NCBI RefSeq assembly: GCF_010671565.1
Contig: NZ_JAABOQ010000001.1
Coordinates: forward strand, 186,001-250,000
Source: Spongiivirga citrea
GTDB lineage: Bacteria > Bacteroidota > Bacteroidia > Flavobacteriales > Flavobacteriaceae
Reading direction: 5' to 3'
DNA length: 64,000 nucleotides
Position 1 is the stretch's first letter. Every line of letters begins with the position of its first letter. Positions 45,782 to 49,761 of the stretch are shown here, piece after piece. The translations under genes and the position numbers were made by a program. Below the pieces are notes generated by a model. The model was not told the origin of the DNA, did no database searches, and saw only the letters and a list, made by a program, of their open reading frames with translations.

Positions 45782-45846
45782 AACTAAATATTTCGTTAAA
45801 TAACTATATATTTAGTTGTATAACTATTTTTATAGTTATACATTTG
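45782..45846 (+). promoter_or_regulatory. triple BlaI/MecI-type operator over the blaI promoter
   Basis: Three AACTA-N6-TAGTT dyads start at 45782 (second half degenerate, TCGTT), 45802 and 45822, an exact 20-bp period. The third extends to a perfect 10-bp inverted repeat GTATAACTAT/ATAGTTATAC (45818-45841). Its ACTA-N6-TAGT core is like that of the staphylococcal mec operator. The -7 element TACATTTG (45839-45846) overlaps the third dyad and a -33-like GTTG (45815-45818) overlaps the second, so binding should block transcription. Confidence 0.75.
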
Positions 45847-45865
45847 AAACATCAATTGGATAATC

Positions 45866-46225
45866 ATGCACAAACTCACAAACAAAGAAGAAGAAGTAAT
45901 GCACATTTTATGGAAGCTGGAAAAAGCTTTTGTAAAAGAAGTTCTGGCCGAAATAAAAAGCGATCCGCCTCATTACAATACGTTATCTACCATTATTAGA
46001 AATCTTGAAGAGAAAGGATATGTCGCATACGAAGCTTTTGGTAAAACACATCGCTACTACCCTATTATTGCCAAAGAAGATTATCGCAAGCGATTTATGA
46101 ATAAGGCTATTGAAAACTACTTTAATAATTCCTACAAAAACGTTGTTTCCTTTTTTGCGAAAGAAGAAAAAATAAGCGTAGAGGAGTTAAAAGAGATCAT
46201 CAAACTAATAGAAAAGAAGCAATAA
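45866..46225 (+). CDS. BlaI/MecI/CopY-family transcriptional repressor
   Basis: A 119-residue winged-helix repressor. LTNKEEEVMHILWKLEKAFV (3-22) begins the domain and NTLSTIIRNLEEKGYVAYEA follows (about 43-62) as the recognition segment; the C-terminal helices dimerise. It is cut by its M56 partner in the classical system, and the cleavage site would lie between about 95 and 105. The gene overlaps the downstream M56 gene as TAATG. Upstream are three operator dyads, so it is likely to repress itself and the partner. The signal may not be a beta-lactam, because no beta-lactamase is present. Confidence 0.9.
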   Translation: MHKLTNKEEEVMHILWKLEKAFVKEVLAEIKSDPPHYNTLSTIIRNLEEKGYVAYEAFGKTHRYYPIIAKEDYRKRFMNKAIENYFNNSYKNVVSFFAKEEKISVEELKEIIKLIEKKQ

Positions 46226-49092
46226 TGAAGGAGCTATTTATATACCTAATTAAAGTAGCAGCTATTACAAGTCTTTTTTATGCATGCTATCAGTTATTTT
46301 TAAAAAGAGACACTTTTTTCAAAGCGAATCGGCATTTTTTATTAGCAGGACTAGTAAGTGCAATTGCGCTTCCTTTTCTTGTTTTTACTAAGGTGACTTA
46401 CATTGAAAGACCAGTTGTTGAAGCTAGTACTGTATTAATGACCAATGCAAATTTTCAAACGGCTACAATACCTGTTCAAACTGAATCCGAAATTAACTGG
46501 CTTGCAGTTTTGGCTGTAGTTTATGTCATTGGAGTTCTAGTAATGATGAGTAGATTCCTTCTTCAACTACTCGCGCTACGCAGGTTGACCAAAAATAAAA
46601 AAACTGTGAAAAATGGTCGATTCAAGCTAGTGATGGTAGATGATGAAATTGCTCCTTTCTCATTTTTTAAAACAATTGTATACAATCCAGATTTATATTC
46701 AAAAGATGAGCTTGATGCCATTATAGAACACGAGCAAGTGCACTGTAGACAATTACACAGTTTAGATATGGTACTATCAGAAGTCTTTCTGGCATTCCAG
46801 TGGTTTAATCCATTTGTATGGCTTTACAAACGCAGTATTCAACAAAATTTAGAATTTATTGCGGACAAAGAAGCCTTAGAAACCTTAAATGCATCAAAAA
46901 TATATCAGCAGATACTATTAAAAGTTTCCTTAGGAAATTACTGCACAGCTGTTGTAAACAACTTTTTCAATTCATTAATCAAAAAACGAATTATTATGAT
47001 CAATCAACAAAGTTCGCACAAGCGAAATTTATTCAAAATGGCATTTATCTTGCCATTGCTAGCGCTCTTTTTATATAGTTTTAATGTAAAGGAGGAAACG
47101 AAGTTTAAACCTTCAGTTAATGAAACTAGCGCCGTTTCATTTATAAGTCCTATTGCGAAATCGGACCTACAAAATATTTCATCTGGTTTTGGAATGCATA
47201 AAAGCCCATTTACCAAAAAGCAAGAATTTCATAACGGAATTGACTTAGTTGCAATCAGAGGAACTAAAGTTTTTGCGGCCGAAAGTGGTACTATATCTTT
47301 AGCAAAAAAGGATGGAAAGCATGGGAATAGAATAATCATTAATCATAAAGGCTCTTATCAAACAAGATACTCTCATTTGCTTAAGTTTAATGTCATTTCT
47401 GGCGATCAAGTAAATAAAGGAGACGTAATAGCCTATGTTGGTAGCACAGGACTTTCTACCGGACCACATTTGCATTTTGAGGTTTTAAAAGATGATGAAT
47501 TGCTTGATCCTATTTTGGTAGTACCTACATTCAATAAAGTTGTTAAAGCCGACCACTATTTCATTACTAGGGCTTCAACAGCTCAAGAAATAAGCGCGAT
47601 CGAAGCAGCTTTTAATAAGTCTAATAAACAGGTAACTATCACGTTAAATCCTCAGTTTGATGCAACTAGTAGACTACTCAAGAAAGTAACTCTTGTGCCA
47701 CTTTTTAGCAGTGAATCTAAATCGGATACCAAGGTTATTGTTGACTTTAATAAATCCAAAAAATTCTCATTTTTTTATGACAAAGAGCAAAACGGTATTG
47801 TTACTAAAAATGGTGATGAAAGTGGCTTCCTAATTTTGCCAGATCGTTTTATGATTCCCGATTTATATAAAAATCAGTCTCAAGAGAAAGAAGAGAAAAT
47901 GGGAAAAAACCCATTGATCATTCTAAATGGAAAAGTGACTGATCTAAAAGACACTAAAAATGAAGAGTTGCATATTCTTGGTGAACTTAAAATGATTAAA
48001 CCTAGTAGCGCCATTAAGAAATATGGCAAAGACGCCAAGGATGGTGCATATGAGGTAAAAGGTGAAATAAAAGTTGTTCCCAAAAGTGGCTTTCAGGTTA
48101 AGATTACTAAAAATATGAGTGATGTTCAACTTGAAGAATTAAAAAAAGAGCTGAAAGACAAACATGGATATAAACTAACATTTGATAATGTTAAGCGCAA
48201 TGATAAGGGGCATATCACATCAATTTCTATTAAAATGAAGGGGGAAAAAGGTGTTGTTTCTTCAAGCGAATCAAATCCATTAGGTATAAAAGATATTCAT
48301 CTAGGAATTAATGAAGAGGGTAGTATTTATATGAAGTCCGAAAAAGAAGATGAAGTTGAAATAAAAATACAAGGAAGCGTCATTCAAGAAAAAGAAGTTG
48401 AAATTGAAGAGGAGAACGAAGAAAAAGAAGAAGAAATAGAGGTAAATGAGGAGAGTGAATGGAAAGTATCTTCAGGCATGGTTATTAAAGAAGTTGAATA
48501 CGACGACGAAAAAGAAGTTGCACAACCTTATCAGATTAAAACTGCTGCTATTTCAAAACTGAAATATGAAGATGGTGTCGATACTGAAAAATATGAATTT
48601 GTTTTTGTTGTAGGAAAGAATAGTAGTGATACCTATTTAAATGATATGGTCAAAGAATTGAAAACAACTTTCAATATCGGCATGAAAATTTCGAAGCTAA
48701 AACGCAATAGCAATAATGAAATAACAAGTATCAGAATCACATTGAATGACAATAAAGGCAATAAGAGCAGTGCCACATTTAAAAAGGGCAATAACCCAAT
48801 ACCCAATATTGCTGTTGGCAAAGAAAATGGCAACTTAATAGTACGATCTATATCAGATACACATAAACCAGATACCGACTATTTGTACCCAAGCGGCCAA
48901 TCATTCAAAGTAGAACCTGGACTAACCCCACTTCATGTTTTGAATGGCGAAATAATAAGTGAAGAAGATTTTGCGAAACTAGATTATAATAATATTGAAT
49001 CAGTTAATGTTTTAAAAGGAAAAGCTGCAAAAAAACTATATGGTGAAAAAGGAAAGAACGGCGTTGTCGTTGTCATAACCAAAAAGAAGTAG
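46225..49092 (+). CDS. M56 (BlaR1-like) sensor protease fused to an M23 peptidase domain
   Basis: A 955-residue protein. Hydrophobic segments at about 5-22, 35-55, 91-118 and 270-287. The M56 protease carries HEQVH (169-173). After the last helix comes a complete M23 domain (about 318-430) with H336/D340 (HNGID), H384 and H415-L-H417. Then three copies of a repeat of about 80 residues (roughly 446-520, 624-705 and 793-875), interspersed with charged low-complexity sequence (724-745). Two TonB-plug-like motifs are at 562-614 (LIILNGK, IKKYGKDAKDGAYEVK) and 903-955 (LHVLNGEI, KLYGEKGKNGVVVV). The plug-like tail is common in Bacteroidota M56 proteins; the M23 insert is less so. It is coupled to blaI by TAATG. 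Confidence 0.82.
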   Translation: MKELFIYLIKVAAITSLFYACYQLFLKRDTFFKANRHFLLAGLVSAIALPFLVFTKVTYIERPVVEASTVLMTNANFQTATIPVQTESEINWLAVLAVVYVIGVLVMMSRFLLQLLALRRLTKNKKTVKNGRFKLVMVDDEIAPFSFFKTIVYNPDLYSKDELDAIIEHEQVHCRQLHSLDMVLSEVFLAFQWFNPFVWLYKRSIQQNLEFIADKEALETLNASKIYQQILLKVSLGNYCTAVVNNFFNSLIKKRIIMINQQSSHKRNLFKMAFILPLLALFLYSFNVKEETKFKPSVNETSAVSFISPIAKSDLQNISSGFGMHKSPFTKKQEFHNGIDLVAIRGTKVFAAESGTISLAKKDGKHGNRIIINHKGSYQTRYSHLLKFNVISGDQVNKGDVIAYVGSTGLSTGPHLHFEVLKDDELLDPILVVPTFNKVVKADHYFITRASTAQEISAIEAAFNKSNKQVTITLNPQFDATSRLLKKVTLVPLFSSESKSDTKVIVDFNKSKKFSFFYDKEQNGIVTKNGDESGFLILPDRFMIPDLYKNQSQEKEEKMGKNPLIILNGKVTDLKDTKNEELHILGELKMIKPSSAIKKYGKDAKDGAYEVKGEIKVVPKSGFQVKITKNMSDVQLEELKKELKDKHGYKLTFDNVKRNDKGHITSISIKMKGEKGVVSSSESNPLGIKDIHLGINEEGSIYMKSEKEDEVEIKIQGSVIQEKEVEIEEENEEKEEEIEVNEESEWKVSSGMVIKEVEYDDEKEVAQPYQIKTAAISKLKYEDGVDTEKYEFVFVVGKNSSDTYLNDMVKELKTTFNIGMKISKLKRNSNNEITSIRITLNDNKGNKSSATFKKGNNPIPNIAVGKENGNLIVRSISDTHKPDTDYLYPSGQSFKVEPGLTPLHVLNGEIISEEDFAKLDYNNIESVNVLKGKAAKKLYGEKGKNGVVVVITKKK

Positions 49093-49469: not shown

Positions 49470-49526
49470 ATGATCGCTTTACTTGTTTACGTCGTTACTA
49501 CTGCATTAGAAGTTCTTATTGGATAA
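49470..49526 (+). CDS. 18-residue hydrophobic peptide ORF in a self-contained transcript
   Basis: ATG at 49470 to TAA at 49524-49526 encodes MIALLVYVVTTALEVLIG, enough for one membrane segment. It has an A-rich leader, a promoter ~50 bp upstream and a terminator-like hairpin at 49553-49580, and no other ORF sits in the transcript. It could be a small membrane peptide, a leader peptide, or a chance ORF in a small RNA. Confidence 0.35.
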   Translation: MIALLVYVVTTALEVLIG

Positions 49527-49608: not shown

Positions 49609-49761
49609 ATGAAGCGAAGCTGGTTTAAATTTTTAGCTACGATTAATAAAGCCGTACTACCTAGTTTTACTAAAAGACGTTTGGATCTTGCCAAAGCCAA
49701 AAAATGGCAAATGGCTATATTCGGATGGAAATTGTACGTAACTAAACGTGCGTTAGACTAG
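49609..49761 (+). CDS. small conserved protein (often named SsrA-binding in relatives)
   Basis: A 50-residue basic protein: MKRSWFKFLATINKAVLPSF, then TKRRLDLAKAKKWQ, and a C-terminal GWKLYVTKRALD. I recall closely similar ~50-residue proteins in many Flavobacteriaceae, annotated as SsrA-binding protein although they lack the SmpB fold's length; the name should not be trusted. It overlaps the convergent apt gene by 4 bp (CTAG shared by both stops). Confidence 0.65.
   Translation: MKRSWFKFLATINKAVLPSFTKRRLDLAKAKKWQMAIFGWKLYVTKRALD

Follow-up and report, generated by a model that had tools for sequence, protein, structure and literature searches.

In the window, a 64,000-nucleotide stretch of the Spongiivirga citrea genome, a repressor gene of the BlaI type is followed by a gene for an M56 sensor protease that carries a complete M23 peptidase (M56::M23). 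We see an even chance that the two proteins form a BlaI/M56 switch in which an active M23 wall hydrolase serves as periplasmic input, and probably also as output. The fusion, the intact residues of both proteases, the adjacency of blaI, the operator array, the recurrence of the fusion and the hydrolase genes next to a compact class of relatives were read directly from the sequence. The locus bears on how diderm bacteria gauge wall cutting and set their hydrolase levels. BlaR1 systems are familiar as drug sensors; here the same switch appears repeatedly joined to a wall-cutting enzyme. The M56::M23 protein offers a direct, testable one-protein link from peptidoglycan to repressor, and the repeated origin of the join in related bacteria suggests a direct coupling of wall cutting to gene control in these cells. 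The phylum is rich in BlaI-M56 systems, and no signals assigned to them were found in the literature searched.

The fused protein

The features of the locus are collected in Table 1. The first part of the fused ORF matches Peptidase_M56 (PF05569, 4.7e-18, 65.8 bits versus a curated cut-off of 31, Pfam). The sensor-type protease proposed in the first-pass annotation is thus present as a complete domain, with the zinc site HExxH...E in the form of HEQVH (169-173) and E210. These residues (H169, E170, H173 and E210) are invariant in 53 of 53 aligned M56 sequences, and the Glu follows the second His at a distance of 37 residues, as E242 follows H205 in the zinc site of BlaR1 (H201/H205/E242; PMC9834060). 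Transmembrane helices were predicted by hydropathy at residues 4-22, 39-57, 90-108 and 270-288 (TM1 to TM4), and the structure model agrees. A BlaR1-like layout would place M56 in the cytoplasm and all that follows residue 288 in the periplasm. The segment NNFFNSLIKKRI, around F247, is a candidate autocleavage loop by its likeness to the autocleavage position S283-F284 of BlaR1 (PMC9834060). The full-length model (pLDDT 71.6, pTM 0.44) is good at the domain level only; a fold search with it returned M23 enzymes and BlaR1. Sequence comparison with solved structures gave M23 endopeptidases as the closest and, matching the first part of the protein, BlaR1.

The M23 domain lies just after TM4. Its Peptidase_M23 match (PF01551, residues 335-429, 1.5e-29, 102.5 bits versus a cut-off of 28.7, Pfam) spans profile positions 2-96 of 96, i.e. 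the full domain. The zinc ligands are H336, D340 and H417, the catalytic histidines H384 and H415, and the tyrosine Y382. We compared 18 distinct fused M23 domains, whose mean pairwise identity is 47%: no more than 18 columns are fully conserved, among them those of all zinc ligands, of both catalytic histidines and of the Tyr. The five residues listed at the outset for this domain (H336, D340, H384, H415 and H417) are therefore not only all present, they are invariant across the fused domains. This argues for a retained enzyme that looks catalytically complete, in a domain predicted to be periplasmic. A dead M23 domain is not supported, judging from the active-site residues kept in 18/18 fused domains.

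To score the rest of the ectodomain we used a profile made from further M56 proteins of the collection. Both TonB-plug-like motifs of the first-pass annotation were recovered, one of them degenerate and the other C-terminal. Three related repeats had also been claimed; two are solid, whereas the third (residues 447-472) gave a weak partial match (0.009). A full TonB-dependent receptor, with plug and beta-barrel, was not found: the likeness concerns a fragment of about 50 aa, which scores 15.6 bits with Plug versus a cut-off of 23.9 (Pfam). The absence of a penicillin-binding domain, seen from the start, was borne out by Pfam and NCBIfam (blaR1_generic reaches 34 bits versus a cut-off of 400). 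This absence is however not unusual, as ectodomains without such an end are usual for M56 proteins of the phylum; the unusual part is the M23 insertion. A plug-like motif is found in 163 of the 280 collected M56 ORFs, so the plug-like and repeat parts are ordinary for the group and the missing penicillin-binding domain is not notable.

Table 1. Features of the blaI-M56::M23 locus, with positions in the window
Feature	Position	Strand	Evidence
Three tandem AACTA-N6-TAGTT dyads, putative BlaI operators	45782..45837	+	Same array before blaI in M23-bearing and M23-less orthologs
TACATTTG, presumed -7 element of the blaI promoter, immediately following the third dyad	45839..45846	+	Sequence
BlaI/MecI-type repressor, 119 aa	45866..46225	+	Penicillinase_R PF03965, 2e-31, 109.1 bits versus cut-off 22.6
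Whole M56::M23 protein, 955 aa	46225..49092	+	ORF, Pfam; start overlaps last base of blaI
Residues 1-288, four predicted TM helices and M56 gluzincin domain between TM3 and TM4	46225..47088	+	Pfam, hydropathy, model; fold matches include the cryo-EM structure of BlaR1
Residues 245-256, NNFFNSLIKKRI, candidate autocleavage loop	46957..46992	+	All 53 aligned M56 proteins have F247 and R255
Residues 306-432, complete M23 peptidase domain	47140..47520	+	Pfam 1.5e-29, invariance, fold matches
Residues 563-611, degenerate plug-like motif	47911..48057	+	i-E 8.8e-11
Residues 626-685, ectodomain repeat	48100..48279	+	i-E 2.5e-23
Residues 797-859, ectodomain repeat	48613..48801	+	i-E 3.9e-18
Residues 902-953, C-terminal plug-like motif, SusC/RagA signature-like	48928..49083	+	i-E 5.4e-24; NCBIfam TIGR04057 2.5e-07, below cut-off

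Operators and genomic context

Near residue 95 the repressor has the motif SFFAKE, whose Phe is a candidate for the BlaI cleavage position: it stands where cleavage would be expected, and 226 of 233 homologs have Phe at that column. Upstream of blaI the three dyads follow each other at an exact spacing of 20 bp (45782-45797, with one mismatch, 45802-45817 and 45822-45837). Such an array would imply autoregulation. The element TACATTTG is one that we take to be of the Bacteroidota -7 type, for which the consensus is TAnnTTTG. No Rfam elements were found near the locus.

Pattern searches in the S. citrea genome located a perfect tandem dyad pair only here and before another BlaI-M56 locus, and no perfect tandem operator indicative of a wider regulon outside these two loci. 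Neither single dyads at other sites nor looser tandem matches exceed a reversed control in frequency. From the restriction of perfect pairs to BlaI-M56 loci, the direct target of BlaI is most likely its own operon and not a wider wall-stress set. The second pair (ACTA-N6-TAGT) is located at G000:C10:287838-287871 (L338), just upstream of the other BlaI-M56 locus; the two systems of this genome may share an operator type.

The neighbours of the operon are a CaCA exchanger gene upstream and apt downstream, both on the other strand (named from sequence); no wall gene adjoins it. The order CaCA/blaI/M56, mostly with apt, is also present in Aquimarina (L001), Maribacter (L002, L003) and several other genomes, and the M56 protein of Aquimarina L001 has 531 aa and is without M23. 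This conserved synteny with M23-less orthologs indicates that the window gene is an ordinary locus whose M56 protein gained M23. The ortholog ectodomains vary much in length and content, whole proteins ranging from about 430 to 955 aa. Among 148 collected close ortholog ORFs, M23 is found only in members of a long class, i.e. in four genomes (S. citrea, G365, G405 and G120). Between the M56 gene and apt lies a 50-aa ORF, MKRSWFKFLATINKAVLPSFTKRRLDLAKAKKWQMAIFGWKLYVTKRALD (window 49609-49758), which is kept near the M56 gene in many orthologous loci with 58-76% identity. Upstream of it is an 18-aa ORF, MIALLVYVVTTALEVLIG (49470-49526), present only in this genome among the loci compared. Some relatives (L178, L235 and L110) have M56 genes duplicated in tandem.

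Recurrence of the fusion and the compact class

How often M56 and M23 are fused was a question raised with the first-pass annotation. The fusion proved neither ubiquitous nor unique: a search combined with reading of the loci identified it in no fewer than 15 of 400 same-family genomes: the four of the long class and eleven more that a compact query brought in. Sampling the phylum yielded G716, G595 and G660; G660 has its own BlaI and two M23 domains. Loci with a fusion from elsewhere in the phylum include L334 and L335, the latter with two M23 domains. In L335 (3632-5979, from a distant family of the phylum) these are in tandem and a divergent BlaI gene lies upstream. A contig scan of 84,980 species gave, among the best 80 loci, one other M56::M23, in an uncultured Prevotella (L004), with the arrangement BlaI-M56-M23-TonB_C. 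A ubiquitous fusion is ruled out by the window-locus orthologs, nearly all of which are without M23, and an oddity of a single genome or an assembly error by independent genomes that show the fusion with different spacing and partners.

On the M56 tree the fused label requires at least six changes, four of them forced by supported branches. A tree of 47 rows rejects the four long-class fusions as one clade (AU p = 1.4e-5) and does not reject a clade of the window protein with G120 (AU p = 0.45). In G120 the M23 domain occupies a different chain position (frame residues 500-627). Members of the compact class group together as one clade in the M56 tree. Resolution of the M23 tree is poor, which leaves room for one shared source of the long-class M23 domains. 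The pattern can be explained by repeated gain, by ectodomains exchanged from one M56 gene to another, or by many losses; on these trees the M56::M23 join appears to have arisen several times in related bacteria.

The compact class (12 genomes of the family, spanning nine genera) consists of proteins of about 440 aa with M56 and M23 only: apart from the short TM2-TM3 loop, the ectodomain contains nothing but M23. One or two dyads similar to those of the window precede blaI. The member of G377 is a normal compact ORF of 440 aa; its apparent stop comes from an alignment running beyond the ORF's own stop codon. A secreted M23-LysM gene is found downstream in 8 of the 12 compact loci, on the same strand and after short gaps, in one case as next-but-one gene (Pfam-checked in L149 and L328). 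A ninth locus has an Amidase_3 gene directly downstream. For comparison, we took 156 unfused M56 loci that extend at least 1.3 kb downstream of the gene: in none of them does an M23 gene lie within 2.5 kb. We infer that the hydrolase neighbours are co-transcribed with M56::M23. The M23-LysM genes have no consistent operator before them (one single match, in L325), so control of these neighbours by BlaI requires co-transcription. The compact loci are L311-L333; in L149:6060-8809, for example, BlaI, M56::M23 (about 440 aa) and a secreted M23-LysM protein form a set. Several compact loci also contain a polysaccharide deacetylase-like gene (L329 by Pfam; L324, L326 and L327 by eye).

A possible wall-reading switch and its alternatives

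In BlaR1, sensor movement activates M56, which cleaves BlaI directly (PMC9834060). In Bacillus, a peptidoglycan dipeptide releases BlaI, and BlaI/MecI responds to it (PMC3305447). Either route would suit a protein in which M23 replaces the penicillin sensor, the signal being wall engagement or cleavage products. We prefer wall engagement, because M23 is essentially the whole ectodomain of the compact members. From the features above we infer topology, peptidoglycan cutting, signal transfer, BlaI cleavage and induction as follows. In the periplasm, directly after TM4, the M23 domain would engage and probably cut nearby peptidoglycan. A change in this engagement would be relayed through the membrane by the helices and so activate the cytoplasmic M56 protease to cut BlaI. 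Loss of BlaI would open the operator array, raise the operon and lead to more of the hydrolase-sensor; in the compact relatives, the switch would also raise the secreted M23-LysM hydrolase or the amidase. A link between wall and regulation is likely, given that the fusion recurs and that M23-LysM and amidase genes adjoin the compact class. A more specific version, which we put forward tentatively and regard as rather doubtful, is that the M23 active site detects whether cuttable cross-links are present, the TM2-TM3 loop perhaps competing with them as in BlaR1, and directly drives an M56/BlaI switch setting both its own amount of hydrolase and that of the secreted M23-LysM partner of the compact class. 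If true, a wall hydrolase acting as its own sensor would be a new signalling logic.

M23 cannot be the sole possible input of the switch, since nearly all orthologs with the same operators are without it. In another reading, possible if rather unlikely, M23 is an effector only: a membrane-tethered hydrolase made in amounts that the autoregulated operon determines, the sensor being the repeat and plug-like ectodomain as in the unfused orthologs. Those orthologs keep locus, BlaI and operators, which implies that the system works without M23, and the operators mark only BlaI-M56 promoters. The compact class, however, has M23 as its sole ectodomain, so that there, short TM2-TM3 loop apart, M23 must carry any periplasmic input.

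The invariance of the M23 active sites bears on two further readings. It is improbable that M23 is a non-cutting sensor that binds or tethers peptidoglycan, wall binding keeping M56 off: a site beside TM4 would suit a sensor of tension or occupancy, and degenerate M23/LytM domains do act non-catalytically in EnvC and NlpD (PMC9662197), but some of the five active-site residues and the Tyr should have been lost from a pure binder, and the 18 fused domains retain them all. The same conservation weighs against a neutral acquisition in a fast-changing ectodomain with no signalling role, which we consider very improbable. The great variation of ortholog ectodomains and the two different chain positions of M23 agree with neutrality, whereas repeated acquisition and the upkeep of M23 across the nine genera of the compact class do not.

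The combination of M56 and M23 is named in a review of M23 proteins, within a group under 1% of them; the review adds that M56 had not been demonstrated to take part in peptidoglycan cleavage (PMC9662197). The domain pair had thus been listed, whereas its function had not: that listing gives no organism, locus, active-site, operator or function analysis. In open-licence papers we found nothing else on M56 proteins with plug or M23 ectodomains, nor a description of the recurrence, the compact class with its hydrolase neighbours or the operator array.

Among known systems, the window locus resembles BlaR1/MecR1-BlaI/MecI (MEROPS M56) in its BlaI-type repressor beside an HExxH...E gluzincin, its dyad operators at the promoter, its four TM helices (here predicted) and, beyond TM4, a C-terminal part that is likewise predicted to be periplasmic. 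It differs in having M23 and plug-like and repeat modules instead of a penicillin-binding sensor, and in lacking a nearby beta-lactamase or mecA target gene. The M23/LytM endopeptidases ShyA, MepM, NMB0315, Pgp3 and LytM share the full M23 domain (H...D, YxH, HxH) and are the best sequence and fold matches; unlike theirs, the window M23 is joined to a cytoplasmic regulatory protease and not to LysM, OapA or SH3b parts. The unfused BlaI-M56-plug proteins of Flavobacteriaceae, such as that of Aquimarina, have the same synteny (CaCA/blaI/M56/apt), operators, M56, repeats and C-terminal plug-like motif, but no M23. In Aquimarina, the M56 gene is followed by a gene for a separate, exported-looking protein of 272 aa (L001:5925-6740). 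It has no Pfam match and combines an ectodomain-like repeat with a plug-like end, as if this part of the ectodomain stood alone.
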